From: Chryseobacterium antibioticum
GTDB taxonomy: Bacteria > Bacteroidota > Bacteroidia > Flavobacteriales > Weeksellaceae
Assembly: GCF_012927325.1 (NCBI RefSeq)
Contig: NZ_JABBGI010000001.1
Location: forward strand, 124,001-188,000
Direction of reading: 5' to 3'
DNA length: 64,000 nucleotides
Below are positions 13,505-52,876 of this stretch, one piece after another. Each line of letters opens with the position of its first letter. The first letter of the stretch is position 1. Position numbers and translations under genes: made by a program. The notes under the pieces were generated by a model. The model was not told the DNA's origin. It made no database searches and saw only the letters and a program-made list of their open reading frames with translations.

Positions 13505-13536
13505 AACCTCGTTAGAAATACTCTAACGAGGTTTTT
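13505..13536. terminator. Bidirectional terminator between coaE and the dehydratase operon
   Basis: A perfect 12-bp stem (AACCTCGTTAGA at 13505-13516, complement at 13522-13533) with loop AATAC, A-rich before and T-rich after. It closes both coaE and the convergent peptide-modification operon. Confidence 0.95.
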
Positions 13537-13543
13537 ATTTATA

Positions 13544-14392
13544 TTATTGATTGTTTTGGTAAACAGAGGTTTTGTAGTGTCTCAATAGATAATCATAGAT
13601 TACCATTTCAAATAATCTTTGATTGGAAACAAAGAGTCTGTTGATATTCATATGAAAAATACTCTGGAAAAAATGTTGTAAAGGGATTCCCAAAGATCCA
13701 TTTTTATTATGAATTAGTATGTTTTGAAAAACAGCACTGCTTTCTTCAATATTGGAAATAACAGCATTTCTTTCTTCTGAAAATTCTTCAGACCGGACAA
13801 ATTCTGTAAATTTTGGCTTAAATTCTCTATATTTTTTATCCAATTGACTATTCAATTTTTTATCCGCCTTGAATTCGGTTTTAAAAGCATGATTAAAATT
13901 TTTTATCCAATCCAGTTTTTCATGAACCGTTATTTTAAGTTGCTTTAATATTTCATCAATATAAAAGAGACTGATAATAATTTTTTCCTCATCATCATAA
14001 TCTAAACATAGAAGTGTAAATTCACTGTTTTTACAGAATAACTGTTCAGCATCTTCGATCGTATTTTCTCCATATCTTTCAATTTCCCTGCTATATGTAT
14101 CGATTAAAATATTCGAAATTTCACCGCTATTAAGGTATTCCAGCAAAGCCTGGTTTATTCTGTCAAGTACTGTTCCATAATACTCAATAATATTTAATCT
14201 GAATCGTATGCGGATGTGAGGTTTAGGATCAGTATAACGAAGAAAAAACCATTGTGAGATATAATTGTTCTTTTGAAAATCTTCCACTAAAGACTGTATC
14301 GCTTCTTCCAAAATTCCATCTGCCGTTTTTATTCCCGTATAAATTTTCAGGTAAAGCCATTCGGTTCCCGGACTAAATTTTCTTTTTACCAT
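13544..14392 (-). CDS. Split lantibiotic dehydratase, elimination-domain protein (thiopeptide-type bacteriocin biosynthesis protein)
   Basis: 282-residue stand-alone equivalent of the C-terminal domain of LanB, which in the family removes glutamate from glutamylated Ser/Thr to leave dehydroalanine or dehydrobutyrine. The residues corresponding to the known catalytic set appear intact: LRYTDPKPHIRIRFR (Arg52 region), YSREIERYG (Arg102 region) and a C-terminal HMNINRLF (His247). The correspondence to NisB Arg786, Arg826 and His961 is by motif, not alignment. It begins 3 bases after the glutamylation gene and is the last gene before the terminator. The split form is known from thiopeptide clusters and some Bacteroidota lanthipeptide clusters. 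Confidence 0.9.
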   Translation of the reverse strand: MVKRKFSPGTEWLYLKIYTGIKTADGILEEAIQSLVEDFQKNNYISQWFFLRYTDPKPHIRIRFRLNIIEYYGTVLDRINQALLEYLNSGEISNILIDTYSREIERYGENTIEDAEQLFCKNSEFTLLCLDYDDEEKIIISLFYIDEILKQLKITVHEKLDWIKNFNHAFKTEFKADKKLNSQLDKKYREFKPKFTEFVRSEEFSEERNAVISNIEESSAVFQNILIHNKNGSLGIPLQHFFQSIFHMNINRLFVSNQRLFEMVIYDYLLRHYKTSVYQNNQ

Positions 14393-14395
14393 AAC

Positions 14396-16606
14396 CTATT
14401 TCCTGTTTTTATACATTGGAAAGATAAACTCATGCTTATAATCATCATTTTCGTTGCATAAAAATTCTTCAATGATAATAGATTTTTTTAGCTTTATGGT
14501 TTCGATAAAAAGTTTTGCCATATCATAATTTTCCAGATTCATTGTTAAAGTATTATCAAAATTTACCCATTGAATCCATGATGGAATTTTCCTCTTAATT
14601 CTCCAATTTTCAAGCTGGATCAGAAAATGTTCTCTATCCAGTAAATCAAAAGAAATAATATCTTTTTCCGCTATCTTCCATTGGGCTTTTGACAGTATAA
14701 TATTCCCATACTCTACTCTTGGTAAAAATTTATAAATATGTTCTAATCCTCCCCATGTAAAATATAATCCTTTTCGTATATCCTGAGAATAAAGATCAGA
14801 GAGGAAGTGATACATAGGTAAAGTGTTACCGGAATAATTATGGGCATTTGTTAAATAAGGTCTTATTTCTTTATTCAGCTTTTTGGAACGTAAAACAATT
14901 CTTTCATTTTTCAAAGAAATATATAAATCATCTACCGGTATTTGTTTTTCTTTTGGTAGTACAGATTGGGACAAATAAGGGATTTCATATTGTCTTAAGG
15001 TTGGCCTTCTGATCAAATTTCCGATTCTTGCTTCGGGTAAATGAACGATTTCTGCCAAAATATAATCAGAATTTAATTCCTGCTCTTTTTTTGCAATTGC
15101 TTTTGAAAGGGTTTGCAGCTCTGACCTTTCCGAACAAAATCTTCCCAGCAGATTCGCTGCGCTGCTTCCTGTACTGGTATTTAAGAATAGCTTTTCGCGA
15201 TTATTATCCGAAATAATCTCTGTTAAAAAAGAAATAGTGTCAGGTAAATCATCCCAATTTTCTTCAAAATATTTGAAATCGTCGTCCAACAATTCTATTT
15301 TATACGCGTCTTCCAGTAAAGCATTTTGTAATTTTTCATTAAGAATTGCATGAACCGGAGTAAGTTTAATATGCAAATTCTCATCTTTTTTGGAAGTTGA
15401 TAGCTGCAAATCTTCCAAATAGGGATGAAGTCCTTTTGCTGCATTATCTTGCTTATAGCCAATTCCAACTTCTGCATCAAGAACATACACTAAAGGCACT
15501 TCTTGTGTTTCAAATCTTTCGTTAAATGCTTTTTTGAATTTTTCTAAGTAATTATTTTTTTTGTTCCGGTTTAGTTTATTTAAAAAGACAACTCCTTTTT
15601 TTACCTCTTTTTTCCAATGATTGGGTAAAACAAATTGTCTTTCCGAATACAAATCGGTCTGAAAAAGATATTTTTTTTCATACTCAGCACCAAAAGATTT
15701 AATTAATTCTTCTGTTTGAGTATATTTTAAAACTGGATTTCCAATGTTTTGATCCAATTCAGTTAATTTATTCTTTACAGAAATTAGAATATTCAACTCT
15801 TTATATTCCTCTATTTTTTCCAGAATAAAAATAAGGATGTCTAAAAAATCTTTTCCGGATACATTCGGCTCTAATTCACTTACAAGAACCTGATTATCTA
15901 TCAGCTCATTAATAAATTCCAAAGATTCTTCTTGGGTTATTTCATGATTAATAAGGGTTTCTGCTAGCTGTTGCAGTGTTTTACCTTCTTTTGACAGTTC
16001 AAGCACTTGCTCTAATTCTGCAGACAGAGGTACCGATGAAATAACATAATCTCTTTTCCCACCAGTATATTGATATTCCACATAACGGATTTTGTTTCCT
16101 ATCCTGTAAATACTATTGTTTGGAAATAGCAACAACCTATTTCTTATTTCAGGTAATTGTATAAAATGCTGAGCCAGGGAAACAAGAAAATACATATCCA
16201 ATTTGGTATCTCTAACTAACTGTCCATCTTTTGTCTGATCCGGATGACTCGCAGATTCCCTATTTATTACCCCTTCACCAAATTCCCCTAAACTAACACA
16301 AGAAAATAAGCCGAATGGTGTACAACGGGTACTCATTCGGCTATAGTATTTTAATATGGTATTTTTTAGTTTTTGATCGTCTTTTGGTAAAAACTTTTTT
16401 TCGGAATTTACCCATTTAGCCAATTCTTCATATAAGTATGGCGAAGCTAAGTAAATGGCTTCCTTAAAAATAGAACTCCCCGTAATTTCTTTTAATTCGC
16501 TATCCGAAATTTCTTTTTTATTAAATCTTTCTACAAAATTTTTGCAAGAAAATATGGGAGTACGCACAACATACTCATTAAAAAATTGGTAAGGAAAACG
16601 AGACAT
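14396..16606 (-). CDS. Split lantibiotic dehydratase, glutamylation-domain protein (LanB N-terminal)
   Basis: 736-residue equivalent of the N-terminal part of LanB, which uses glutamyl-tRNA to esterify Ser/Thr in a peptide substrate. The family hallmark RMSTRCTPFGLFS is present, with Arg90, Arg94 and Thr96 in the same spacing as NisB Arg83, Arg87 and Thr89, and an Asp in RDTKLDMYFL follows. The opening PYQFFNEYVVRTP is typical of Bacteroidota LanB. The leader-binding region lies in the N-terminal third. The gene abuts the upstream peptidase (stop and start on adjacent bases). Together with the next gene it totals 1018 residues, close to a full-length LanB, so this is a clean split and not a truncation. 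Confidence 0.93.
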   Translation of the reverse strand: MSRFPYQFFNEYVVRTPIFSCKNFVERFNKKEISDSELKEITGSSIFKEAIYLASPYLYEELAKWVNSEKKFLPKDDQKLKNTILKYYSRMSTRCTPFGLFSCVSLGEFGEGVINRESASHPDQTKDGQLVRDTKLDMYFLVSLAQHFIQLPEIRNRLLLFPNNSIYRIGNKIRYVEYQYTGGKRDYVISSVPLSAELEQVLELSKEGKTLQQLAETLINHEITQEESLEFINELIDNQVLVSELEPNVSGKDFLDILIFILEKIEEYKELNILISVKNKLTELDQNIGNPVLKYTQTEELIKSFGAEYEKKYLFQTDLYSERQFVLPNHWKKEVKKGVVFLNKLNRNKKNNYLEKFKKAFNERFETQEVPLVYVLDAEVGIGYKQDNAAKGLHPYLEDLQLSTSKKDENLHIKLTPVHAILNEKLQNALLEDAYKIELLDDDFKYFEENWDDLPDTISFLTEIISDNNREKLFLNTSTGSSAANLLGRFCSERSELQTLSKAIAKKEQELNSDYILAEIVHLPEARIGNLIRRPTLRQYEIPYLSQSVLPKEKQIPVDDLYISLKNERIVLRSKKLNKEIRPYLTNAHNYSGNTLPMYHFLSDLYSQDIRKGLYFTWGGLEHIYKFLPRVEYGNIILSKAQWKIAEKDIISFDLLDREHFLIQLENWRIKRKIPSWIQWVNFDNTLTMNLENYDMAKLFIETIKLKKSIIIEEFLCNENDDYKHEFIFPMYKNRK

Positions 16607-18790
16607 CTATTTTTTTGTATTTTCTTTTGGTTGGTAATCAGGATGCCCCAATTGCCAGAAGGCAAATGCAAAGATATCTCCTATACCGGCATATTGCTGG
16701 GCCACAGGAATATTAGCTCCATGCCCTCCCTCAAAATCTATTTTTAGTAATATTGCGTTGTCGGAGGCATCATCAGCCATTAATTTTGCTGCAAATTTTG
16801 CAGGCATCCATGGGGAAACTCTCTGATCATTTATTCCTGCTGTGATCAAAGTTGCAGGATACTTCACTCCTTTTTTAATGTGATGATAAGCATCCATTTC
16901 TAATAAGGCTTTAAATTCTTTTGGATCTTTTACACTTCCAAATTCTTGCGGTTGCCCATTAGAAGTTACTTCTTCCCTAAGCATATTTAGAGATCCCACT
17001 TCTGCAATAACAGCTTTAAAAAGATCCGGTCTTTCGGTCATTGCTCTACCCACTGTAATTCCTCCTGCACTACCTCCCCAAATCGCTATTTTCTCTTTTG
17101 AAGTATATTTTTCTTTTACAAGGTATTCTGTACAATCTATTAAATCTCTCCAAGTGTTAGACTTTGTCTCTTTATATCCTCCCAAACGCCACCGTTCTCC
17201 TTTTTCTCCCCCTCCTCTGACATGAGCAATTGCCATTATACCTCCTTGACTTACCCATAATAAATAACTTTTAGCAAAAGCAGGACTGTCAACTACTCCA
17301 TAAGAGCCATAAGCTTCTATTAACATTGGAGATTTACCATTTTTAACTAAGTTTTTATTATAAATCAAAGATAATGGGATTTCTTCGCCATCTCTGGCTT
17401 TTACAGTTATCTCTTTTGCTACTATATCTTTGAATTCAGGGTATTCTATAATTGGTACAAGATTTTCCGGCTTGAAAGTATTGGTTTTAGCATCATATCT
17501 AAAACGCTGTTCATCATTTGCCCATCCTGAACATGTCATCCAGATATCCGGGAAATCTTGTCCTTTAGATTGTAAGTCAATATTTCCTGATGGATATGGA
17601 AGTCCGATAGGAATATCTTCCCCATTTTTATATAAATATAATTTAGCCTCTACGCCGTTTTTAGTGGTAGTATAATAGATGCCGTCTTTCGTAATTTTAT
17701 AACCTTTTATAATTTCATCTTTTTTTTCAGGAATTAAAACCTCAGCATTTTTAAAATCTGGATTATCAATGCTGGTTTTACATAATTTATTAAGAGATGA
17801 ATTATAGGATGATTGAAAAATAACCTTATCATTCCAAAAATCTAAATTTTTAGCTTTATCATTTGATTCGGAAAACGGTTTCCAATTTTTCTTACCGGCT
17901 AACAGATCTTTTTTACTTATTATAAATGTCTTTCTGTAAGGTTGAAAGTCCACCAGCATTCCTTTATAATACTGATCCTCAATATTATACTCCAAAATCA
18001 TAGGAAACTGGTCTGCAGTAATTTTTAAATCTGGATTATTTTTGGCAGAAAAAACGTCAATTAATTTTTTGGGATCTGTTCCTAACTTATATAAAACAGT
18101 CTGGGTATTTTTATAAAAATCTATAGATTTTGGATCAATTGTTGAAAAAGCGACATAAATAAAACCACTATTATCATCTAGCCATTTTATCCCATCCAAA
18201 GTAGCGGGCGCTGTATTTGCAATAAATTCAGGATAAACTTGTTTTTTTTTCACATCGATGATAATCAAATCTGAAAGCTCTGCTCCCTTCTCTGCCATTG
18301 AAACAGCAATTTTACCACCATCCCAACTAGGGCTAATATAATTGATTACAAATTCATGATTAGGTTCTGAATTTTTGTAATTGATAGGATCATAAAGTAA
18401 TTCTTCTTTCCCTGAATCTCTTTCTCTATAATATAGTTTTGCTATTTTTTCATCAGCATTCCTTTTTAGATAAAAATATTTATCATTATTAGTTATTTTC
18501 AATTCAGATATAGAATAGCCTCTCCTTTTATCAAACTCTAATCTTTTTTCTACATAATAGTTTCTTTTAGAAATTAGATTAAGAACAGAATTTGTATAAG
18601 CAGTCTGCGACTTCATCCAATTGATCGTCTGAGGATTTTCTAAATCTTCCAGATTTCTGTACTCATCCAATATTTTAGTTCCAAAATATTCATCAGTAGT
18701 AGGTTTTGAAAGTGCTAAATTTGTTTTTTGAGCATTGATAAAGTTGCAGAAAACAAAATTAATCAGAAGAATAAAATGTGTTTTTTTCAT
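16607..18790 (-). CDS. Secreted prolyl oligopeptidase, S9 family (copy 1)
   Basis: 727-residue serine peptidase that cuts short peptides after proline. A signal peptide ends at about residue 20 (NFINAQ), so it should act in the periplasm or outside. The beta-propeller domain is followed by the alpha/beta-hydrolase domain, with the nucleophile in IWGGSAGGI (about Ser573), aspartate in INDQRVSPW (about 654) and histidine in EGGHGANI (about 690). It is a close paralogue of the next upstream gene. In other lanthipeptide systems (for example FlaP) such enzymes trim leaders, so a maturation or degradation role here is a reasonable inference. Confidence 0.93.
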   Translation of the reverse strand: MKKTHFILLINFVFCNFINAQKTNLALSKPTTDEYFGTKILDEYRNLEDLENPQTINWMKSQTAYTNSVLNLISKRNYYVEKRLEFDKRRGYSISELKITNNDKYFYLKRNADEKIAKLYYRERDSGKEELLYDPINYKNSEPNHEFVINYISPSWDGGKIAVSMAEKGAELSDLIIIDVKKKQVYPEFIANTAPATLDGIKWLDDNSGFIYVAFSTIDPKSIDFYKNTQTVLYKLGTDPKKLIDVFSAKNNPDLKITADQFPMILEYNIEDQYYKGMLVDFQPYRKTFIISKKDLLAGKKNWKPFSESNDKAKNLDFWNDKVIFQSSYNSSLNKLCKTSIDNPDFKNAEVLIPEKKDEIIKGYKITKDGIYYTTTKNGVEAKLYLYKNGEDIPIGLPYPSGNIDLQSKGQDFPDIWMTCSGWANDEQRFRYDAKTNTFKPENLVPIIEYPEFKDIVAKEITVKARDGEEIPLSLIYNKNLVKNGKSPMLIEAYGSYGVVDSPAFAKSYLLWVSQGGIMAIAHVRGGGEKGERWRLGGYKETKSNTWRDLIDCTEYLVKEKYTSKEKIAIWGGSAGGITVGRAMTERPDLFKAVIAEVGSLNMLREEVTSNGQPQEFGSVKDPKEFKALLEMDAYHHIKKGVKYPATLITAGINDQRVSPWMPAKFAAKLMADDASDNAILLKIDFEGGHGANIPVAQQYAGIGDIFAFAFWQLGHPDYQPKENTKK

Positions 18791-18809
18791 AGGTTATAAA
18801 ATGGGAAAA

Positions 18810-20984
18810 CTATTTTTTAATTTCCTCTTTGGGCTGGTAATCAGGATGACCTAATTGCCAAAATGCAAAGGCGAAAATGTCTGAAAGATTTGAATGCCCA
18901 TGAAAATCAGTAGTATTGTTCCCATGCCCTCCCTCATAATCTATTTGAAGTAATACTGGATTTTTTGATGTATTATTCGATTGTAGTTTAGCCGCAAATT
19001 TTACAGGTTCCCAAGCAATAACTCTTGGGTCGTTTATTCCTCCTGTTATAAATGTTGCTGGGTATTTTACTCCTTTTTTGATATGGTGGTAAGCATCCAT
19101 TTCCAGTAAAGCTTTAAACTCTTCAGGATCTTTCAATGCTCCATATTCATCTGCATTACTACCAATAGCAAGCACATCTCTTAATGTATTAGTTGTTGGT
19201 ACTTCTAAAATTGCAGCTTTGAACAAATCTGGTCTTTCTGTTAATGCTCTTCCTACTGTAATCCCTCCTGCACTAGTTCCCCAAATTGCTACTTTATCCT
19301 TTGAGGTATACTTTTCATTAATTAAATACTCTGTACAGTCTATTAAATCTCTCCAAGTATTGGGTTTAGTTTCTTTATATCCTCCCAAACGCCATTTTTC
19401 TCCTTTTTCTCCACCTCCTCTCACGTGGGCAGTGGCAAAAACGCCGCCTTCTTTTACCCATAATAAATAAATTCTCGCAAAAAATGGGTTCCGAGATATT
19501 CCATATGCTCCATAAGCATCTATTAATACCGGATTTTTACTATCCCTTTTAATATTTTTATTATATATAAGGGATAATGGTATCTCTTCACCATCTCTTG
19601 CTTTTACAGTAATTTCCTCAACTACAATATCTGTAAACTCAGGATATTCGGTAATAGGAGTAATATTTTGAGCAAAAAAAGAATTTGTTTTTAGGTCATA
19701 CTTAAAATGCTGTTCCTCATTTGCCCATCCCGAGCAGCTTACCCATATATCTGAAAAATCTTTTCCTTTTGCCTGTAAATTTATATTCCCTGATGGATAG
19801 GGAAGCTTAATTGGAATATTTTTCCCGTCTTTATATAAGTATAATTTTGCTTCCACTCCGTTTTTTGTGGTAGTGTAATAAATACCATCTTTAGTGAATC
19901 TATATTGTCCTATAACCTCATCATTTCTTTCTGGGATAAGAATTTCAGGGTTTATAAAATCTGGAACTGTTATACTGGTTTTGCAAAGCGTATAATTTTG
20001 AGTATTATATTGAGATAAAAAATACAGATCATTATCTATAAGTTGTAAGGATCTTACTTTATCTTCTTTAGTATAGAGAGACTTCCATGTTTTTTTACCC
20101 TCTAATAAATCTTGTTTAGGAATTATAAATGTTTGCCTGTAATAGCTATTATCAAGCAACATTCCTACGTAATATTTATCATTAGAATCTAAGATAATAG
20201 GAGATTTTTTTTCATCTATTTTTAGTTCAGGATTATTTTTAGCAGAAAAAACATCTGTTAATTCATTCGGAGGTGTCCCTATTTTGTATAAAATAGCCTG
20301 TGTGTTTTTATAGAAATTTTGAGATTTGGGATCATTGATTGGAAAATAAGTATAGAAAAATCCTGAATTATCATCCACCCACTTTATACCTCCTATATTC
20401 GCCGGCATTGTATTGGTAATCACTTCAGGATGAACATATTTGTTCTGCACATCCATAATAATTACCTCTGCCAGTTCTTTCCCTTTTTCAGCCATCGCAA
20501 TGGCAACTTTATCCCCAACTAAGTCTGGGCTAATGTAATTAATTACAAATTCATGATTCTGTTCGTTACTTTTATAATTGACAGGGTCATAAAGCAATTC
20601 TTCTTTTCCTAAAAATCCTTCACGATAATAAAGCTTCGCAGCTTGTTCATTACCGCTTTTTTTTAAATAAAAATATTTATCATTATTAGTTATATTTATA
20701 TTTGATACAGAATACCCCTGCCTTTTATCAAACTCCAGCCTTTTCTCTAAATAAAATTTTCTTTTAGGAATTTGATTAAGAATTGAATTTGTATAATCTG
20801 TTTGAGTCTCCATCCATTTCTTTGTTGAAGGACTCTCTAAATTCTCTAGGTTTCTATACTCATCTACTATTGTAGTCCCAAAATATTTATCTGTTACAGG
20901 AACAGATGGTGCTGGATTGCTTTTTTGAGCATTTACAGTGAATATATATAAAACACAAACAATGATAAATATTGATTTCTCCAT
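18810..20984 (-). CDS. Secreted prolyl oligopeptidase, S9 family (copy 2)
   Basis: 724-residue paralogue of the neighbouring S9 peptidase, similar along its whole length, so a tandem duplication. The signal peptide ends near FTVNAQ (about residue 20). The catalytic set is intact: IWGTSAGGI (about Ser570), INDPRVIAW and YEGGHGNN. Differences cluster around the active site: GTS instead of GGS before the serine, and VIAWEP instead of VSPWMP after the aspartate. That could reflect different substrate preference. It starts 3 bases after the precursor peptide gene, the strongest sign that its job concerns that peptide. Confidence 0.92.
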   Translation of the reverse strand: MEKSIFIIVCVLYIFTVNAQKSNPAPSVPVTDKYFGTTIVDEYRNLENLESPSTKKWMETQTDYTNSILNQIPKRKFYLEKRLEFDKRQGYSVSNINITNNDKYFYLKKSGNEQAAKLYYREGFLGKEELLYDPVNYKSNEQNHEFVINYISPDLVGDKVAIAMAEKGKELAEVIIMDVQNKYVHPEVITNTMPANIGGIKWVDDNSGFFYTYFPINDPKSQNFYKNTQAILYKIGTPPNELTDVFSAKNNPELKIDEKKSPIILDSNDKYYVGMLLDNSYYRQTFIIPKQDLLEGKKTWKSLYTKEDKVRSLQLIDNDLYFLSQYNTQNYTLCKTSITVPDFINPEILIPERNDEVIGQYRFTKDGIYYTTTKNGVEAKLYLYKDGKNIPIKLPYPSGNINLQAKGKDFSDIWVSCSGWANEEQHFKYDLKTNSFFAQNITPITEYPEFTDIVVEEITVKARDGEEIPLSLIYNKNIKRDSKNPVLIDAYGAYGISRNPFFARIYLLWVKEGGVFATAHVRGGGEKGEKWRLGGYKETKPNTWRDLIDCTEYLINEKYTSKDKVAIWGTSAGGITVGRALTERPDLFKAAILEVPTTNTLRDVLAIGSNADEYGALKDPEEFKALLEMDAYHHIKKGVKYPATFITGGINDPRVIAWEPVKFAAKLQSNNTSKNPVLLQIDYEGGHGNNTTDFHGHSNLSDIFAFAFWQLGHPDYQPKEEIKK

Positions 20985-20987
20985 TTT

Positions 20988-21167
20988 TTAACGTCTCACT
21001 GATGTGGTATTATTATTCTGAGGTATTAATGTTGGAGGTTCATCACCTCCATTGATATTCATTAATTGATCATTCCCACCATTAATTGCTTTCATTTCGC
21101 TAATTTTCATGATTTGCACTTTTTTCAACGATAATTTTTTTTCTTGTTTGATTGTTTTTTTCATCAT
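20988..21167 (-). CDS. RiPP precursor peptide with class I lanthipeptide-like leader, core without cysteine
   Basis: 59-residue peptide and first gene of the operon. The leader has the Bacteroidota class I pattern (KKLSLKKVQIMKISEM, residues 10-25) and ends in INGG at residues 28-31. A second INGG occurs at 38-41, leaving the 18-residue tail DEPPTLIPQNNNTTSVRR. Thr46, Thr54, Thr55 and Ser56 could be dehydrated, but there is no cysteine anywhere, so lanthionine rings cannot form. Counting back from the first GG, Met(-12), Glu(-8), Met(-7) and Ile(-4) also fit the leader consensus of C39 exporters. Start ATG at 21167 (a second ATG follows); no Shine-Dalgarno site. Confidence 0.85.
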   Translation of the reverse strand: MMKKTIKQEKKLSLKKVQIMKISEMKAINGGNDQLMNINGGDEPPTLIPQNNNTTSVRR

Positions 21168-21188
21168 AAATTATTTTAATATTTCATG

Positions 21189-21250
21189 CAAATAAAAGGA
21201 TATTTTTCAAATTAACAATGAAAACACACTATAGATTTATAAATCTATGG
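21189..21250 (-). promoter_or_regulatory. Operator and -7-like element upstream of the precursor operon
   Basis: On the minus strand CCATAGATTTATAAATCTA occupies 21250-21232 and contains a perfect 18-bp palindrome (21231-21248). After 35 bases comes TTTATTTGC (21196-21188), a degenerate TAnnTTTG element, 22 bases before the start codon. The same element with the same spacing precedes the exporter operon. Confidence 0.72.
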
Positions 21251-21342
21251 TATCTAATTATATTTTCAAATTACTGTTTTCCAATATCTTGTAAGCATCT
21301 ACGCTATATTTTTATTTTATCATTTTTTGATTAAGAAAAATG

Positions 21343-21350
21343 TAAATTTG
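21343..21350 (+). promoter_or_regulatory. -7 promoter element of the TPR-AraC regulator
   Basis: TAAATTTG matches TAnnTTTG exactly and ends 15 bases before the ATG at 21366, which argues for that start. No good -33 element is seen. Confidence 0.6.
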
Positions 21351-21365
21351 TATTGTATTTACAAA

Positions 21366-23114
21366 ATGATGAAATTTATATCCCTCTTTTTATTTCTTAC
21401 CAATTTATTATGTGCACAGAGTCAAGTATCTGGTAATTTAAAAAAACTCAAATATGAAGAGTTGAAAAATAATTTTTACAATTATTATGATAATAATAAA
21501 ATTGAACAATCTAAAAGTATAGCTCACTTTTATCTACAAAAAGCAAAAAACGAAAAAAACAATCTTCAAATTGCAGATGGCTACATCCTTATCCATTTTA
21601 ACGAAAACTATTCTAATGCTTTCAAATATTTAGATAGTGTAGCTTTAGTTACAAAAAATTTAAAAGGAACCATATATCCCTCTCAAACTTATTTAATGAA
21701 AGGGAATTTATATTATAAATATGACAATTTAAAAGCCGCATTAGACAATTATATTTTAGGTTTGCAGTATGCTAAGAAACAGAAAAATCAAAAACTGACT
21801 GCTTATGCTAATATGAATATTGCTTACATCAATAGCTATATAGGCAAAAATTTAGAGGCCGCAAAAATCTTTAGATATTATCTCTATCGTGGAAATAACA
21901 TAACAGATGATTATCAGCATAACCAAATACGCATAGCCCTTATAAGCTGTTATCTTGAGATTAACAAATTAGATTCTGCCGATTTTTTAATTAAAGAAGG
22001 TCAAGAATCTGCTCTCATCGGTAAAAACAAATACAATCCTAACTTATATTCTTATTTGTCTGGAACTTATAATCTCAAATTAAAAGAATATAAAACGGCT
22101 ATTAGAAAGCTGTCAGATGCTTATATTTATTTTACTAATTCCAAGGAAAACACTAGTGCTAATTATGCCCTTTATAACTTAGGTAAAGCTTATGAAGGAG
22201 AAAAGAATAAAGAAAAGGTTGTAGAAACCTATATTCAGTTAGACTCCAATGTGCAAAAATACGACATTACATTTCCTGAACTTCGTGAGGCATATACCTA
22301 TCTCATAGACTATTACAAAGAAAAAAATAACACAAAAAAACAACTTTATTATATTGATCGGTTTTTAAAAGTAGATAAAAAGCTCGATGAACAGTTCCAA
22401 TATTTATCCACAGAGCTTCCTAAGAAATATGATACGCCCAATCTTTTGCAGGAAAAAGAAAGCATTATCAATGAGTTAAAGAACAGAAAAACAATTCTAA
22501 ATGTATCTGTTGGTTTTCTATTGATAATACTTCTGCTACTCTCATTCTTATATTACAGATCTAAGAAAACAGAGAAGCAGCATAGAAAAATTGCGCAGGA
22601 CCTCATCAATTCCATTGAGATGAAAAATCTTGAAACGCCTCCGGTAGCTCAATTAATTACAAGTCCATCTCCTGCTATTGTACAAATAGAAACAGAGGAG
22701 GATAAGGCAACAGAAGATAAAACATCCAAAATAACTTCAGAGGATATCACGCAACTCATTTTAAAAGAACTGGAAGTTTTTGAAGCTAAAGAGCTTTTTT
22801 TAAAGAAAGGTATTACATCTTCCAGCTTAGCAAAAAGTATAAAAACCAATACTACGTATCTATCAGAGGTCATCAATACCCAGAAAGGGAAAAACTTTGC
22901 AGCTTATCTCAATGATCTTCGTATAGATTATGCACTAAACAGGCTGATAAAAGATAAAAAGTTCCGTTCCTACAAATTATCTGTGATTTCAGAAGAATTA
23001 GGATACAATAATGATCAGGCATTTTCTCTGGCATTTAAGAAAAAAACGGGTACTACTCTTTCTATTTACATTAAAGAAATTGAAAAAACACATCAATCTT
23101 CAATTAATCCATAA
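21366..23114 (+). CDS. Membrane-bound TPR sensor with cytoplasmic AraC-type DNA-binding domain
   Basis: 582-residue regulator. An N-terminal signal or membrane segment (FISLFLFLTNLLCAQ) is followed by about 330 residues of TPR-like helical repeats (YYKYDNLKAALDNYI, then NLGKAYEGEKNKEKVV). One transmembrane helix lies at about residues 378-398 (VGFLLIILLLLSFLYY), and an AraC helix-turn-helix pair at about 475-575 (ISEELGYNNDQAFSLAFKKKTG). The layout predicts an outside sensor and an inside DNA-binding domain. It sits between the two peptide operons and is the obvious candidate to bind the shared palindrome. The ATG at 21366 is preferred over a TTG at 21327. Confidence 0.88.
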   Translation: MMKFISLFLFLTNLLCAQSQVSGNLKKLKYEELKNNFYNYYDNNKIEQSKSIAHFYLQKAKNEKNNLQIADGYILIHFNENYSNAFKYLDSVALVTKNLKGTIYPSQTYLMKGNLYYKYDNLKAALDNYILGLQYAKKQKNQKLTAYANMNIAYINSYIGKNLEAAKIFRYYLYRGNNITDDYQHNQIRIALISCYLEINKLDSADFLIKEGQESALIGKNKYNPNLYSYLSGTYNLKLKEYKTAIRKLSDAYIYFTNSKENTSANYALYNLGKAYEGEKNKEKVVETYIQLDSNVQKYDITFPELREAYTYLIDYYKEKNNTKKQLYYIDRFLKVDKKLDEQFQYLSTELPKKYDTPNLLQEKESIINELKNRKTILNVSVGFLLIILLLLSFLYYRSKKTEKQHRKIAQDLINSIEMKNLETPPVAQLITSPSPAIVQIETEEDKATEDKTSKITSEDITQLILKELEVFEAKELFLKKGITSSSLAKSIKTNTTYLSEVINTQKGKNFAAYLNDLRIDYALNRLIKDKKFRSYKLSVISEELGYNNDQAFSLAFKKKTGTTLSIYIKEIEKTHQSSINP

Positions 23115-23162
23115 GCAATACACTATCAACACTATAAGTACTATATTTTTATAAATTTATAG

Positions 23163-23224
23163 CCATAGATTTATAAATCTAGACTTCATTTACTTTTTTC
23201 ATGTCACCATCTTCTGTATGTTTG
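23163..23224 (+). promoter_or_regulatory. Operator and -7 element upstream of the double-glycine peptide/exporter operon
   Basis: CCATAGATTTATAAATCTA at 23163-23181 is identical to the element before the precursor operon. After exactly 35 bases comes TATGTTTG (23217-23224), a perfect TAnnTTTG. A further AT palindrome, TATAAATTTATA, lies at 23150-23161. Transcription from here would leave an untranslated leader of about 125 bases that includes the palindrome GCTGATCAGC at 23289-23298. Confidence 0.75.
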
Positions 23225-23355
23225 CTTCAGGTAAAAACACAAAGATTTTATTTTTTGTATGTGTACAGTATAAAAAATAAAAATACCCGCTGATCAGCCC
23301 CCCATGTCAGGGATTGTATGACAAAAAGCATAATTATTAATTTAAAAAATCTAAA

Positions 23356-23484
23356 ATGAATTTAAAAACTTTAGATACAGAAGATCTTAGAAAGATTGAA
23401 GGAGGTTTTGGAGAAGAGCCTAAAGCAATTGTAATTCTCGGAAATGTAATTTATACAAATGGGGTTGGAAATCAAAATCCTTAA
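23356..23484 (+). CDS. Double-glycine leader peptide A, bacteriocin-like
   Basis: 42-residue peptide. The 17-residue leader ends LRKIEGG and fits the C39 substrate consensus (Leu-12, Asp-8, Leu-7, Ile-4, Gly-Gly). The predicted 25-residue product, starting FGEEPKAIVILGN, is mildly hydrophobic with Thr and Tyr but no Cys or Ser. First of three small genes followed by a dedicated exporter. The activity (antibacterial, signalling or other) is not visible. Confidence 0.75.
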   Translation: MNLKTLDTEDLRKIEGGFGEEPKAIVILGNVIYTNGVGNQNP

Positions 23485-23503
23485 TTATTAAAAACAAAAA
23501 AAA

Positions 23504-23683
23504 ATGAATTTAAAAAATTTAAAAGTAGAAGAATTGACTTCTATCGAACAACAATCTACAGAAGGTGGATGGTTAGGATTATTATTAGCTATTGCGGAAA
23601 TAGCTTGGGAAGCTACACACGACCCAAAAGACATGCAAGCAGGTTATAATGCAGTTCATGGTTCATATCACGGATCAAAATAA
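23504..23683 (+). CDS. Double-glycine leader peptide B, bacteriocin-like, unusual leader spacing
   Basis: 59-residue peptide. The leader begins like peptide A (MNLKNLKVEELTSIE) but has five extra residues, QQSTE, before the Gly-Gly, which moves the conserved hydrophobic positions away from the cut site. The predicted 37-residue product starts with a helix-prone hydrophobic stretch (WLGLLLAIAEIAWEA) and ends in a polar tail with histidines at residues 39, 52 and 56. No cysteine is present. It starts 19 bases after peptide A. Confidence 0.75.
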   Translation: MNLKNLKVEELTSIEQQSTEGGWLGLLLAIAEIAWEATHDPKDMQAGYNAVHGSYHGSK

Positions 23684-23704
23684 TTATATAAAATTTTTAT
23701 TAAA

Positions 23705-23872
23705 ATGGAAAAATTAAAAGAATTAACTCAAGAAGAGTTAACACAAGTAGAAGGAGGTACATTTATAGGGTATCTTATTGGATGTGTAGTTGGAGCTTTA
23801 GTAGTAGCTGGAGAACACGAACATTATTTAAATCAGCATGGTGTACCAGGAGGGCATGCGATGATGCAATAA
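23705..23872 (+). CDS. Double-glycine leader peptide C, bacteriocin-like with GxxxG helix and His-rich tail
   Basis: 55-residue peptide. The 18-residue leader (ends ELTQVEGG) fits the C39 consensus perfectly. The predicted 37-residue product opens with a membrane-like helix containing overlapping GxxxG motifs (GYLIGCVVGALVVAG), as in two-peptide class IIb bacteriocins. It then turns polar with four histidines (EHEHY, QHG, GHA). The single cysteine is in the helix. Peptides B and C could be partners; this is inference. Confidence 0.78.
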   Translation: MEKLKELTQEELTQVEGGTFIGYLIGCVVGALVVAGEHEHYLNQHGVPGGHAMMQ

Positions 23873-23880
23873 ATAATAAT

Positions 23881-23910
23881 AAGCATGAGTATTTAACTAT
23901 ACTCATGCTT
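23881..23910 (+). terminator. Hairpin between the peptide genes and the exporter genes
   Basis: Perfect 12-bp stem AAGCATGAGTAT / ATACTCATGCTT with a 6-base loop, 8 bases after the peptide C stop. The following bases are T-rich but interrupted (TTAATTAATTTT), so it may be a leaky terminator or an RNA-stabilising stem that makes peptide messages more abundant than exporter messages. Confidence 0.75.
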
Positions 23911-23925
23911 TAATTAATTTTCCTT

Positions 23926-24723
23926 ATGAATAAAATAATCCCATTATTTGTAAAAATATTTTTTTTGCAATTTATTATTTCTATACCATTTTTCTTTATA
24001 GCTTTTAAAGACTTTTCTAAAAAAGAATTAACTGTTAATTTATGGATCTCCTCATTTTTCCCAGAATTAATTTGTGGGATATATTTTCTTTATAAATTAG
24101 ATTTGATAAAAGATTTTAGAACCAACTTATTTTTAAAATTTTGGAATTTTAAAAACTTGAAAATTATCTCATTAGGAGTATTTATTCCAACAGCTATTAG
24201 TTTTATATTAAATTATTTTAATTTAATTAATATAAGCTTAATTGAGAATATCGATTACTTGAATATTGTTATATTTTTTTTACTCCTATTATTATCCGCA
24301 TTTATGGAAGAAATATTTTTTAGATTTATTCCATATAGTATATTAAAGGATGAACTTTCATTTAAAAATATTATTTTAACATCATTAATATTCAGCTCCT
24401 TTCATTTATTTAATCCAAACTTTAATATTATTGGGTTGATAAATATTTTTATTGCAGGTATATTTTTAAGCTTAGTATATGTCAAAACTAATTCTATTAT
24501 AATATCTACTATTGTCCATTTTTTGTGGAATTTTTTAATTGGTTGTATCTATGGCAGTAACATAAGTGGATTGAAAATATATAGTATAGCTAATTATAAT
24601 TTTATATCAAATAATAAATTTTTAACAGGTGTTGATTTTGGTTTTGAAGGTTCTATATTAACTACTATAATATTTTCAATTTTCTGTTTTGTTTTAATTA
24701 GATCTACTGTTTTTTCAAAATAA
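23926..24723 (+). CDS. CPBP family intramembrane glutamic protease
   Basis: 265-residue integral membrane protein with about eight hydrophobic segments. The CPBP/Abi motifs are visible: EEIFFR (Glu128, Glu129, Arg133), then FSSFHL and a C-terminal HFLWNF histidine. Family members process CAAX-type proteins or, in bacteriocin clusters, give self-immunity or help maturation. The gene is strikingly AT-rich compared with its neighbours, with long T and A runs. It lies after the three peptide genes and 10 bases before the HlyD gene, so immunity is the simplest guess. Confidence 0.85.
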   Translation: MNKIIPLFVKIFFLQFIISIPFFFIAFKDFSKKELTVNLWISSFFPELICGIYFLYKLDLIKDFRTNLFLKFWNFKNLKIISLGVFIPTAISFILNYFNLINISLIENIDYLNIVIFFLLLLLSAFMEEIFFRFIPYSILKDELSFKNIILTSLIFSSFHLFNPNFNIIGLINIFIAGIFLSLVYVKTNSIIISTIVHFLWNFLIGCIYGSNISGLKIYSIANYNFISNNKFLTGVDFGFEGSILTTIIFSIFCFVLIRSTVFSK

Positions 24724-24733
24724 CTTAAAAATA

Positions 24734-25816
24734 ATGTTAAAAAACATAATCTATATAGGAATTTTAATTCTTATAATTACCTCTCTATGCACTTTACCGA
24801 TTATTTCTGTTCCTATCTCCTCCTCTTCTAGAGGAACAATACGATCTATACAGGAGAATACACAAATTTCTGCAGTTGTCTCAGGAAAAATAATACAAAG
24901 CAGGTTAGGAAAGAATAATCAGGAGATAAAACAAGGCGACACCTTACTTGTTGTAACAGCTGAACAACTGGACACACAAAAGAATTTACAAAACAATCAA
25001 AGTCAAGATTACAATGCACAGCTTTCGGATTTACAAAAAATCTCCCTTGGGAATTTTATTGGTTTACAGACCGGACAATACCAAAAAGAAGTGTCCGCCA
25101 TGCAGGAAAAAATGGCACAAGTTCAAACTCAGCTCTCTTTAGCACAAAAAGATTATGACAGAGCTGCCAGCCTGTATAATCAAGGGGTAATTCCTAAAGC
25201 GGAATACGATAAATATTATTATGACTACCAAGGCTTAAAAAAACAAATTTCCGGTGTCAGAGAACAACAGATAGCTCAATGGCAAGCTCAAAAAAGGGAA
25301 ACAGAAAGACAGCTTCGTTCTTTAGGTTCTGAAGTACAGCGTATCAGTCAGGAACAAAAAAACTATATCATCACTGCACCGGTTTCGGGAAGACTTGTTA
25401 ATTTTTCAGGAATACAGAAAGGTAATTTTCTTGTGCAAGGTCAAAACATCGGAGAAATATCTCCTGACCAATCTTTGGTTGCAGAATGTCTTGTTTCTCC
25501 AAAAGACATAGGCTTTATCCATACAGGCCAAGATGTTAAATTTCAGATTGACACTTATAATTATAATCAATGGGGATTGTTGAAAGGGAAAGTACAGGAA
25601 ATAGATAAAAATATTAAAGTAAACCAACAAACAGGAGAAGCCTTCTTTAGAGTACTTTGTAAGATGGACAATAATTACCTACAACTGAAAAATGGGTACA
25701 AAGGAGACATAGGAAAAGGAATGAGTTTTACAGCTCGTTTTCATTTAATAGACCGGACTTTGTGGCAGCTATTATTTGATAGGGTTGATGATTGGTTTAA
25801 TCCAAAACTAAAATAA
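24734..25816 (+). CDS. HlyD-family periplasmic adaptor of a peptide exporter
   Basis: 360-residue membrane fusion protein. One N-terminal transmembrane segment (IIYIGILILIITSLC) anchors it, followed by a first lipoyl half (ISAVVSGKIIQSRLG), a long coiled coil at about residues 80-215 rich in Gln and Lys, the second lipoyl half (YIITAPVSGRLVNFSG) and a beta-barrel. It should connect the ABC exporter to an outer-membrane TolC-type channel, which is not encoded here. Its stop overlaps the exporter start by one base. Confidence 0.92.
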   Translation: MLKNIIYIGILILIITSLCTLPIISVPISSSSRGTIRSIQENTQISAVVSGKIIQSRLGKNNQEIKQGDTLLVVTAEQLDTQKNLQNNQSQDYNAQLSDLQKISLGNFIGLQTGQYQKEVSAMQEKMAQVQTQLSLAQKDYDRAASLYNQGVIPKAEYDKYYYDYQGLKKQISGVREQQIAQWQAQKRETERQLRSLGSEVQRISQEQKNYIITAPVSGRLVNFSGIQKGNFLVQGQNIGEISPDQSLVAECLVSPKDIGFIHTGQDVKFQIDTYNYNQWGLLKGKVQEIDKNIKVNQQTGEAFFRVLCKMDNNYLQLKNGYKGDIGKGMSFTARFHLIDRTLWQLLFDRVDDWFNPKLK

Positions 25817-27975
25817 TGAAAAAAGATACATTAATAAAGCAGCATGATCTAAAAGATTGCGGTGCTGCATGTCTGGCTTCTGTTTCAGCACATTATGGTT
25901 TGAAGCTACCTATTGCTAAAATCCGCCAATTCTCCCATACCGATACCAGAGGAACTAATGTATTGGGAATGGTTCAAGGACTAGAAAAAATGGGATTCAA
26001 TGCAAAAGGTGTAAAAGGAGGAGTAGACGCTCTTCCTGAAATTCCACTTCCTGCAATAGCGCATATTATTTCAAAAGAACAATACCATCACTATATTGTT
26101 ATATATAAAGTGCAGAAAAATAAGATTTCTGCAATGGATCCTGCCATTGGTAAAATGGAGGAATATTCTATAGAAGAGTTTTCTAAATTATGGACAGGCG
26201 TATTAGTTCTTTTAGAGCCAAATGAATACTTTGAACAAAAAGATGAAAAAACAAGTCTTTATAAGAGATTTTGGAATCTGATTCAGCCTCATAAAAGCAT
26301 TCTGATCCAAGCATTATTAGGGGCATTAGTCTATACCATTTTAGGTCTTTCCACATCCATTTACATTGAAAAAATAACAGATTACGTTTTGATAGACGGG
26401 AACAAACGTCTCCTTAACTTACTTTCAGTAGGGATGATTATCATCCTACTTTTCCAAATCTTTATTGGTGCGATGAAAAGTATTCTTGTTTTGCAAACAG
26501 GACAGCAAATAGATAAGCATCTTATTTTAGGTTATTACAAACACCTATTGAAGCTTCCGCAACGTTTTTTTGACACTATGAAGGTGGGAGAAATCATATC
26601 AAGAGTTAATGATGCTGTAAAAATAAGAACATTCATCAATGATGTATCAATCCAAATTTTTGTAAATATTTTTATTATTATTCTTTCTTTTGCTTTAATG
26701 TTTACATATTATTGGAAATTGGCATTAATTACAGCCTTGGTTATTCCATTTTATTTTTTAGTGTATTGGATCACTAATAAGCTCAATAAAAAAGTAGAAA
26801 GAAAGTTAATGGAAGATAGTGCAGAGCTGGAATCTCATTTGGTAGAATCCATCACTTCTGTAAGAACGATTAAACAATTTGGAGTAGAAACCTTTGCCAA
26901 TAATAAAACAGACAATGCATTTTCAAAACTATTGAAAACGATTTATGCCTCTGTAATGAATTCTTTGTTTTCAGCAAATTCATCAGAGTTCTTATCACGA
27001 ATCTTCACCATTATATTATTATGGGTTGGTTCAGGATATGTTATTGATAGGCAGATAACACCTGGGGAACTTCTTTCTTTTTATGCTTTGATTGGATATT
27101 TTACCAGTCCTGTTTCACAATTAATCGGAATGAATAAAACCATCCAAAATGCCCTAATTGCAGCTGATCGTCTTTTTGAGATTATGGATTTGGAAAGAGA
27201 GGAAACAACTGATAAGATAGATTTAACAGCAAAAAATATAGATCATATTCAATTTAAAGATGTCACTTTTTCATACGGAAGCAGGGTTGAAGTTTTTACC
27301 AATTTCAACTGTCTTATAGAAAAAGGGAAAACAACAGCTATTGTTGGAGAAAGTGGCAGTGGAAAAACTACATTAGCCTCTTTAATTCAAAATCTGTATC
27401 CGTTAAAGACAGGCAAAATCATGATTGGAGATTATGACATTAATTATATTTCTAATTATTCATTAAGAAATTTAGTCTCAGTAGTCCCTCAGCAGATCGA
27501 TCTGTTTTCAGGAAATGTCATTGAAAATATAGCTTTGGGAGAAGATTTTCCAGATGTCCAGCGCATTTTGGATATTACTAAAAGACTCGGAATCCTGAAT
27601 TTTGTTGAAAAATTACCAAATGGTTTTCAAACATATTTAGGTGAAAACGGGGCTTTATTATCTGGTGGACAGAAACAAAGAATTGCCATCGCAAGAGCTT
27701 TGTATAAAAATCCTGAAATTTTAATACTGGATGAAGCTACCTCTTCACTTGATACAGAATCAGAGCTAGTCATTCAAAATACATTACAGGAGTTTAGGAA
27801 TCAAGGAAAAACAATGATCGTTATCGCCCATCGCTTGAGCACTATTGCTAATGCGGATACTATTCTGGTAATGAAAGAAGGACAGATTATAGAACAGGGA
27901 AGCCACCTTGAGCTTATCTCCAAAGACTCTGTTTATAAATTTATGTGGGAAAAACAGGGCACAAAACTAAATTAA
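25816..27975 (+). CDS. Peptidase-containing ABC transporter (C39 peptidase, bacteriocin exporter)
   Basis: 719-residue exporter that cuts double-glycine leaders in the cytoplasm and moves the product across the inner membrane. The C39 domain (about 1-140) has Cys15 in KDCGAACLAS, His92 in HHYIVIY and Asp108 in MDPAIG. A six-helix membrane domain follows (about 150-440). The ATPase domain has Walker A GESGSGKTT, signature LSGGQKQR and Walker B ILILDEATSSLD. All functional motifs are intact. Substrates are most likely peptides A-C, and possibly the LanB-type precursor. Confidence 0.95.
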   Translation: MKKDTLIKQHDLKDCGAACLASVSAHYGLKLPIAKIRQFSHTDTRGTNVLGMVQGLEKMGFNAKGVKGGVDALPEIPLPAIAHIISKEQYHHYIVIYKVQKNKISAMDPAIGKMEEYSIEEFSKLWTGVLVLLEPNEYFEQKDEKTSLYKRFWNLIQPHKSILIQALLGALVYTILGLSTSIYIEKITDYVLIDGNKRLLNLLSVGMIIILLFQIFIGAMKSILVLQTGQQIDKHLILGYYKHLLKLPQRFFDTMKVGEIISRVNDAVKIRTFINDVSIQIFVNIFIIILSFALMFTYYWKLALITALVIPFYFLVYWITNKLNKKVERKLMEDSAELESHLVESITSVRTIKQFGVETFANNKTDNAFSKLLKTIYASVMNSLFSANSSEFLSRIFTIILLWVGSGYVIDRQITPGELLSFYALIGYFTSPVSQLIGMNKTIQNALIAADRLFEIMDLEREETTDKIDLTAKNIDHIQFKDVTFSYGSRVEVFTNFNCLIEKGKTTAIVGESGSGKTTLASLIQNLYPLKTGKIMIGDYDINYISNYSLRNLVSVVPQQIDLFSGNVIENIALGEDFPDVQRILDITKRLGILNFVEKLPNGFQTYLGENGALLSGGQKQRIAIARALYKNPEILILDEATSSLDTESELVIQNTLQEFRNQGKTMIVIAHRLSTIANADTILVMKEGQIIEQGSHLELISKDSVYKFMWEKQGTKLN

Positions 27976-27993
27976 CTTTAACTAAATAAAAAA

Positions 27994-28056
27994 ATGATTG
28001 ATTTTATACTAACTGTCTTTTTATTAATAATGGAATTTTTAGCTAATATGTCATGA
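27994..28056 (+). CDS. Possible 20-residue hydrophobic peptide
   Basis: A short open frame 18 bases after the exporter stop would encode MIDFILTVFLLIMEFLANMS, a single membrane-helix peptide. Support is only its position at the end of the operon and its hydrophobic, gap-free composition. AT-rich DNA easily yields such frames, so this is tentative. Confidence 0.25.
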   Translation: MIDFILTVFLLIMEFLANMS

Positions 28057-52836: not shown

Positions 52837-52876
52837 CAATTATAGTTCTGCTTTCCTAATTATAAAGAATTAATTT

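Follow-up and report, generated by a model that had tools for sequence, protein, structure and literature searches.

Class I lanthipeptide clusters described from Bacteroidetes, the pinensins among them, carry a split LanB dehydratase, precursors with double-glycine (GG) leaders and C39 proteases (PMC7268733). The locus analysed here lies in a 64,000-nt stretch of the Chryseobacterium antibioticum genome (4.9 Mb in 73 contigs), hereafter the window, in which its genes span positions 13544-27975. It consists of a minus-strand arm with a short precursor, S9 peptidases and a LanB pair (the LanB/S9 arm), a plus-strand second arm for the export of double-glycine peptides, and between them a gene for a regulator with a tetratricopeptide repeat (TPR) part, a transmembrane (TM) stretch and an AraC-type helix-turn-helix (HTH). 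The features are as follows.

13544..14392, minus strand: LanB elimination-domain protein (Lant_dehydr_C), one half of the split dehydratase; PF14028 213 bits (cut-off 24.4), TIGR03891 207 bits
14396..16606, minus strand: LanB glutamylation-domain protein (Lant_dehydr_N), the other half of the split dehydratase; PF04738 464 bits (cut-off 28)
16607..18790, minus strand: S9 prolyl-oligopeptidase-type peptidase b, with signal-like N-terminus; PF00326 161 bits, PF02897 113 bits; GGSAGG
18810..20984, minus strand: S9 prolyl-oligopeptidase-type peptidase a, adjoining the precursor; PF00326 162 bits, PF02897 122 bits; GTSAGG
20988..21167, minus strand: precursor peptide, 59 aa, proposed signal peptide; TIGR01847 double-glycine signal 15.8 bits (cut-off 15.7)
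21231..21248, no strand assigned: putative operator palindrome ATAGATTTATAAATCTAT, between precursor and regulator; palindrome and matrix searches
21369..23114, plus strand: receptor-like regulator (TPR-TM-AraC); PF12833 42 bits, TM prediction, structure model and fold search
23165..23182, no strand assigned: second putative operator palindrome ATAGATTTATAAATCTAG, 51 nt past the regulator stop; palindrome and matrix searches
23222..23341, plus strand: conserved second-arm leader element, starting in a TATGTTTG box; 117.8 bits to model R1, of which it is itself a member
23356..23484, plus strand: double-glycine-type peptide 1, 42 aa; TIGR01847 15.0 bits, just below the cut-off of 15.7
23504..23683, plus strand: double-glycine-type peptide 2, 59 aa; GG in the sequence, no family match
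23705..23872, plus strand: double-glycine-type peptide 3, 55 aa; TIGR01847 17.5 bits, above the cut-off
23926..24723, plus strand: CPBP/Rce1-like membrane protease; PF02517 65 bits
24734..25816, plus strand: HlyD-type periplasmic adaptor; PF13437 59 bits
25816..27975, plus strand: C39-peptidase ABC exporter; PF03412 122 bits, PF00664, PF00005; TIGR01193 522.5 bits (cut-off 523.9)

A sequence-only reading of this DNA had listed the genes of both arms and the intervening TPR-AraC gene, and family searches bear out every one. With the Bacteroidetes class I clusters the locus shares the split dehydratase, a Lys-rich leader ending in GG and a C39 protease nearby, and the precursor leader comes close to the LxLxKx5L motif, with Ile in place of the last Leu; compared with those clusters as the available portions of the source present them, it differs in having no LanC, no Cys in the core, one or more S9 peptidases, a divergent TPR-TM-AraC gene and an exchangeable second arm under the same putative operator (PMC7268733). 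From Chryseobacterium, a class I lanthipeptide made with LanC is described that was produced in E. coli (PMC9993889). TPR genes have been noted in Bacteroidales clusters for ribosomally synthesized and post-translationally modified peptides (RiPPs), where pheromone binding by such domains is mentioned and the available text has no LanB (PMC10352776), and a secreted prolyl oligopeptidase is mentioned in another RiPP cluster (PMC12636315). Graspetide loci (grasp-with-spasm/chryseoviridin) are described from Chryseobacterium itself; such genes form one type of second arm beside the regulator, whereas their tie to a LanB/S9/TPR-AraC unit and a shared operator is not met in the accessible part of the source (PMC8939145). 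Nothing resembling the arrangement in the window was found in the sections available of PMC10734526 and PMC12636315, and a literature search found no description of it in the accessible text of the open-access papers searched.

The second arm has the features of a double-glycine export operon, i.e. a C39-ABC exporter with adaptor and peptides with GG leaders. Like C39-exported bacteriocin operons it joins small GG-leader peptides with a CPBP protease, HlyD and the exporter; unlike them it is placed beside a LanB unit with a shared operator, although the same exporter arm also occurs alone.

In the pheromone-gated bacteriocin loci of Gram-positive bacteria, such as pneumococcal blp and nisin autoinduction, peptide and receptor co-vary and one promoter type drives exchangeable bacteriocin cassettes. 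By analogy, the working principle here may be alike, but a single periplasmic TPR-TM-AraC protein would stand in place of histidine kinase and response regulator, the candidate signal is a LanB substrate, and the host is Gram-negative. The RRNPP receptors (Rap, PlcR, Rgg) are cytosolic TPR proteins whose HTH, where present, is N-terminal. The modelled TPR-like superhelix of the regulator resembles them, Rap and Rap-Phr being among the fold matches, whereas its architecture departs from theirs: the sensor is predicted to be periplasmic, with a signal-like start, a TM stretch at 373-391 and a C-terminal AraC-type HTH.

Paired palindromes around the regulator

The genus search covered 173 genomes, the window's own included. 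Stretches of up to about 14 kb upstream of 97 LanB places and 3 more were taken, on one side of LanB only, and a further 20 places were taken as exporter-only or regulator-only; 122 loci entered the gene-list comparison, genes being called by script as non-overlapping open frames of at least 60 aa. The LanB sample comprises 101 loci with window-type LanB (two of them in the own genome), chosen by their LanB pair. The regulator sample comprises 67 loci with a window-type regulator (the window, a second locus on contig 8 of the same genome, and 65 in relatives), several of them taken for the regulator or exporter and not for LanB. A regulator is present in 94 of the 101 LanB loci, 60 of the window type and 34 of a type about 32% identical.

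The palindrome TAGATTTATAAATCTA is found at 21232-21247 and 23166-23181, i.e. one copy before each arm, and these are its only places in the genome when up to one mismatch is allowed; the reversed control pattern occurs at one place. With two mismatches, 0.16 matches are expected in the window by chance, and two were found in 1 of 100 shuffles. A relaxed palindrome (up to one mismatch) has six places in the genome, five of them within the two regulator loci, and its reversed control has three.

To extend this to relatives, a site matrix trained on precursor-side sites alone was used at a threshold of 10 bits, the region behind the regulator being 170 nt around and after its stop codon. Sites are present on the precursor side in 62 of the 67 regulator loci and behind the regulator in 58 of 67. 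The corresponding control counts are 8 of 770 for stretches behind other genes, 4 of 611 for stretches in front of them and 62 of 3350 for shuffles. The class of the site (with a TATA centre or without) is the same at both positions in 53 of 54 loci, a count not corrected for kinship. Sites of at least 13 bits number 194 in 2.26 Mb of locus sequence, 152 at such regulator genes and their flanks and 42 elsewhere. Among 17 held-out regulator loci the first site was found in 6 and the second in 11 (controls 3 of 250); four held-out loci with an S9 arm had the first site in 4/4 and the second in 3/4. Thus matched putative operators stand before both the proposed signal operon and the presumed bacteriocin operon, and regulation of both arms by the one regulator, as the sequence-only reading had proposed, is very probable.

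Nine of the 67 loci have no site behind the regulator (L042, L043, L044, L045, L082, L083, L086, L089, L102). In L044, L045 and L102 a site of at least 16 bits lies further off, before other groups of small genes, either between LanB_C and a 90/212/306-aa group or following an additional gene of 300 aa, and a leader was found near it (two by model, one by pattern). At L044 (position 17218) and L045 (position 2440) the putative operator, with leader, stands behind LanB_C before the 90/212/306-aa group, which places a second arm beyond the LanB genes. The second regulator type (among L029-L115) has a related but different palindrome, e.g. CGAAATTGATCAATTTCG, which is found on both sides in 17 of 35 loci, compared with 9 of 350 shuffles.

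Behind the second site lies a conserved leader of about 120 nt, which opens with a TAnnTTTG/CAnnTTTG-like box, followed by GGTAAAAACACA...TTTTGTATGTGTACAGTAC, and which precedes unrelated cassettes. TAnnTTTG is the -7 box of Bacteroidota. A covariance model of the leader (R1, 25 sequences) finds two copies in the own genome, both before second arms of regulator loci, and at least one copy in 29 of 40 genus genomes; over 56 sources it also places the leader upstream of two regulator-less exporter arms (L120, L126). Altogether 54 copies were counted, 27 by pattern and 27 more by the model at E 1.5e-5 or better, and 47 of them have a putative operator of at least 10 bits within 120 nt. In these 47 the offset from operator to leader is 56-58 nt in 36, 77-80 nt in 6, 88-89 nt in 4 and 50 nt in 1. 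Read by the spacing rules of activators, the steps of about two and about three helix turns suggest an activator sitting on one face of the helix. An Rfam scan of 20900-23600 gave no match up to E 1. A riboswitch or specific RNA fold was not supported (z -1.5; both-side change in 1 of 13 pairs), and the element is therefore termed a conserved leader and not a riboswitch.

Two unrelated peptide clusters standing side by side in a hot spot would account for a LanB arm without exporter arm on contig 8, for exporter arms without a regulator (L120-L124, L126-L131) and for the recurrence of some chromosomal sites. However, this is highly improbable: unlinked neighbours are contradicted by the paired, class-matched putative operators around the regulator before unrelated cassettes, and the site is missing from the same exporter arm placed elsewhere, no upstream site above 10.9 bits being found in L120-L124 and L126-L131.

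Exchange of the second arm

In 55 of the 101 LanB loci an exporter of C39 type, recognised by similarity and at least 600 aa long, lies upstream of LanB on the opposite strand. By chance roughly 1% would be expected, as estimated from the few exporters of a 5-Mb genome and the approximately 14 kb inspected, and the two kinds of arm lie together more often than that. Orthologues of the window's exporter (at least 63% identity, the next matches being near 36%) are found at 22 places in 21 genus genomes, where they adjoin a window-type LanB in six, the own genome included, and stand apart from it in 11; in three they are at contig ends, and in one (G063) the exporter is beside a different LanB. 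In another genus (L147) an 85% relative of the exporter is again beside a LanB unit. The genome itself has, on contig 8, a second unit with divergent regulator, precursor, one S9 peptidase and LanB pair, behind whose regulator are two small secreted-type peptides and a GLPGLI/Porph_ging-type protein, with no exporter. Thus the pairing of the two arms is not fixed.

Genome-wide, Lant_dehydr_N has 3 family matches, Lant_dehydr_C 4, LanC 1 and C39 4; contig 2 has a LanB/LanC cluster carrying its own C39 exporter. A truncated Lant_dehydr_C copy is present on contig 28 (L012, 765-1232), near genes that we read as transposase-like.

Among the LanB loci the precursor leader type, an S9/S15-type peptidase, the regulator and the LanB pair are constant. 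The second arms, labelled from one representative per cluster, include the window's exporter set, a thioredoxin-like/C39 set, grasp-with-spasm sets, VKOR-thioredoxin/C39/HlyD sets, sets with TonB-type outer-membrane proteins, second LanB sets, an AMP-ligase/ketoacyl-synthase (fatty-acid-type) set, GLPGLI with small secreted peptides, and SdpB-like sets. The grasp-with-spasm representatives match TIGR04193 with 416 bits (cut-off 175) and TIGR04192 with 202 bits (below the cut-off of 230). Five of the 67 regulator loci (L042, L043, L082, L083, L086) have, in our reading of their gene lists, no cassette behind the regulator. The 211/288/203-aa genes to the left of the window LanB mark a chromosomal site that holds this exporter arm in the window and in L019, another C39 arm in L020 and L059, and no second arm in L043. 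L022 and L025 have identical cores, sensors 95% identical and unrelated second arms, and in L080 the two sides have changed places, each of them having a site. The second arm is thus exchangeable.

In L040, L048, L049 and L061 the second arm under the operator has an AMP-ligase, ketoacyl synthases, a ketoreductase and a PqqD/M50-like protein. The same cassette presumably also has a 4'-phosphopantetheinyl transferase, FabZ and a second ketoacyl synthase, judged by the beginnings of the sequences, and an acylated peptide or polyketide is a possible output.

The sequence-only reading had taken the locus as one system that makes a dehydrated peptide and unmodified peptides together. A two-product system of this kind, with a dehydrated antimicrobial and unmodified peptides, one exporter for both and a regulator that answers another cue, would explain the same putative operator on both arms and the double-glycine leader on the precursor, and C39 proteases are described in Bacteroidetes class I clusters (PMC7268733, in the portions available). 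Against it, the second arm is swapped freely while core, S9 and sensor change jointly, L022 and L025 have the core in common and not the second arm, and LanB arms without any cassette are seen in the five loci named above. Thus joint production is not the general design, and as an account of the locus the two-product system is unlikely. That reading had also named, as what would speak against it, arms occurring independently and without shared regulation; the arms do occur independently, but shared regulation is very probable.

The co-variation described below favours, in its place, a reading in which the LanB arm is a signal or input module, with the second arm as an exchangeable output. As judged from the sequences compared, there is about an even chance that the locus is a receptor-gated peptide locus of this make-up, with a constant LanB/S9 input arm.

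Co-variation of the precursor core with the sensor

Precursors were located by pattern, 94 of them in 92 loci. None was found by pattern in 16 core loci, of which L099 is positive with a looser pattern and L021 and L024 end near contig ends. The precursor has a conserved leader (..EKKLSLKK..NGG), of a type also found in relatives, followed by a variable core without Cys. For comparison of the core with the other genes, 53 loci were used that have one window-type receptor, S9, full LanB_N and precursor.

Core distance correlates (rho) with the distance of the TPR part at 0.68, S9 at 0.59, the DNA-binding part at 0.40 and LanB at 0.39. With the other three controlled, the partial correlation of sensor and core is 0.44 (permutation p 0.001, the smallest possible), and it persists at 0.44, 0.45 and 0.42 when the loci are dereplicated to 46, 35 and 25. 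In contrast, core against DNA-binding part given the sensor is 0.00, and core against LanB given S9 and sensor is 0.015. The co-variation suggests that the LanB/S9 arm makes the regulator's ligand, i.e. that it has a signal role; on this evidence the odds are about even.

A product of the second arm was also considered as ligand. In 19 loci whose second arm has an ATP-grasp gene, this gene correlates with the sensor at 0.07 and with the core at 0.03, and core and sensor correlate at 0.70 in the same loci. Thus a second-arm ligand is disfavoured, for that cassette type, the one examined. The same figures bear on a related explanation, whereby the regulator senses the second-arm product or the envelope damage resulting from it, and the LanB/S9 arm serves for immunity or clean-up, its peptidase degrading such peptides. 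S9/S15-type peptidases in nearly all units (missing in 3/101), their signal-like N-termini here, and several units that keep S9 and regulator without LanB are consistent with it. But the ATP-grasp type does not follow the sensor whereas the LanB-arm core does, and such a model gives no clear role to a precursor whose leader is conserved; it is less likely still than the two-product system.

Joint transfer of neighbours should also be considered, the LanB-arm product acting outside the locus, e.g. as a developmental or antagonistic peptide. Precursor, S9 and regulator adjoin one another, the permutation p values ignore kinship of the loci and have no model of descent, and gene order could add co-inheritance. 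Along the regulator the correlation peaks at residues 121-240 (0.63, 0.61) and is lowest at the far end (0.28); along S9 it peaks at residues 181-300 (0.54, 0.53) and is again lowest at the far end (0.25). Linkage, too, would give low values in the distant DNA-binding part of the regulator and at the distal end of S9. However, the parts next to the precursor, residues 1-60 of the regulator (0.42) and of S9 (0.33), are below the middles, although the fast change of signal sequences may lower these values. With the minimum at the far ends and signal sequences prone to fast change, linkage and shared ancestry lose weight as a cause but are not removed; that the product acts elsewhere and the co-variation reflects joint transfer alone is improbable.

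The S9b, LanBn and LanBc proteins of the window are about 90% identical to those of L019, whereas the L019 regulator is only 67% identical and its core is different; the window locus therefore looks like a recombinant of two types.

The LanB/S9 arm as a candidate source of a pheromone

By its domains the split LanB pair would carry out both glutamylation and elimination, a feature of class I lanthipeptide synthesis. The Lant_dehydr_C protein is alignable with NisB and 9g04, and the Lant_dehydr_N protein with NisB, MibB-type 5ehk and 9g04. The Lant_dehydr_N motif R..R.TPFGLF is kept in 96 relatives, with Thr changed to Ile in 6, and the Lant_dehydr_C motifs that we take to be catalytic, from the roles of NisB residues, are invariant or nearly so in 97 relatives. 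No LanC cyclase is present in the locus, the sole LANC_like match of the genome belonging to the separate LanB/LanC/C39 locus on contig 2, and none of the 122 loci has a gene best-matched to that LanC (BLAST, 1e-5; a distant LanC could be missed). The window precursor has no Cys for (methyl)lanthionine rings and scores 11.6 bits with the class I leader model NF038153, under the cut-off of 22. An ordinary lanthipeptide locus was ruled out, since LanC is lacking within the locus and Cys in the core. Among 94 precursors the core has no Cys in 51 and one in 43, and at least one Ser/Thr in all 94. Because the LanB motifs are conserved, every core has Ser/Thr and at most one Cys, and no LanC match is found, the product expected is a dehydrated, mostly ring-free peptide, with the caution that LanB is missing from some units. 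An S9 or S15-type peptidase is present in 98 of the 101 LanB loci (S15 in 29), and some units keep precursor, S9 and regulator without an adjoining LanB (e.g. L118, L135-L138).

The regulator has a signal-like N-terminus, a TPR-like superhelix, one TM stretch (about 373-391) and a C-terminal AraC-type HTH; Pfam detection of the TPR part is weak. Its structure model comprises a superhelix of helical repeats, a long helix that contains the TM stretch, and an HTH at the C-terminus. In a Foldseek search with the sensor model, LGN-peptide complexes rank first, and Rap and Rap-Phr pheromone complexes are included. The modelled sensor fold thus resembles peptide-binding TPR proteins, including Rap-pheromone complexes, which is weakly consistent with a peptide ligand.

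A scheme that joins what was found by computation (the genes, the paired sites and their subtype match, the exchange of the second arm, and the co-variation of the core with sensor and S9) would be as follows. The split LanB pair would dehydrate the short precursor on Ser/Thr. A C39 exporter would export it and cut behind the double glycine; in the window this may be the neighbouring exporter, given the double-glycine leader on the LanB-arm precursor, and otherwise another of the genome. An S9 peptidase would trim the peptide outside the cytosol, and the peptide would then bind the periplasmic TPR part of the single-pass regulator. The bound regulator would activate, and not repress, from the two matched palindromes, of which the one before the precursor operon would give positive feedback and the one before the second arm would serve as output switch. 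The output here would be the three double-glycine peptides with protease, HlyD and C39 exporter, the peptides being probably bacteriocin-like.

Several observations weigh against this scheme, in addition to the linkage-like low values at the far ends and the kinship ignored by the p values. The second site is missing in L042, L043, L082, L083, L086 and L089; 7 of the 54 leader copies have no operator inside 120 nt, and five held-out regulator loci (L150-L153, L158) have neither site. L156, L157 and L159-L163 are lone regulators that precede genes for a class II tRNA-synthetase and sigma-54 (domains verified in one of the seven), with second site and leader present, no precursor seen and no cassette in the gap of about 700 nt; these may be emptied sites. 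LanB is not next door in L118, L134-L138, L154 and L155, and dehydration may therefore be optional. The regulator model was built from 6 sequences, with a predicted local distance difference test score (pLDDT) of 75 and a predicted template modelling score (pTM) of 0.55.

A window-type LanB_N has some match in 131 of the 173 genus genomes, and 97 places outside the own genome reach at least 49% identity along most of the query. Of 120 genomes sampled from the family, 14 have this LanB (E 1e-150 or better), 5 of these belonging to other genera, and 10 have the regulator (1e-100 or better), 2 of these belonging to other genera; a regulator search of named genomes gave five loci, four from Chryseobacterium and one from Flavobacterium. 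With this distribution, a broader proposal can be put forward tentatively, at somewhat less than even odds: a Gram-negative pheromone family, in much of Chryseobacterium and a few neighbouring genera, of LanB-dehydrated, mostly ring-free and type-specific autoinducers, read in the periplasm by TPR-TM-AraC one-component receptors. Paired operators in helical phase, together with a shared conserved leader, would put interchangeable cassettes for secreted peptides under the control of these receptors.

If this is true, Bacteroidota would have a form of peptide signalling for which ligand gene, receptor, operator and output are all defined, an unusual mode of communication or competition for this bacterial group, and LanB dehydratases without LanC would gain a possible role as signal makers. 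RiPP and bacteriocin cassettes of Chryseobacterium that may be silent in culture could be awaiting the matching peptide; the proposal predicts which peptide induces which locus and would offer a simple route to waking cryptic clusters. The paired operator and leader could also serve as markers for cassettes that enzyme-only searches would not join to a LanB arm.

Elsewhere in the window, at 51577-54136, two genes of 419 aa lie next to each other and begin alike, probably as the result of a tandem duplication.

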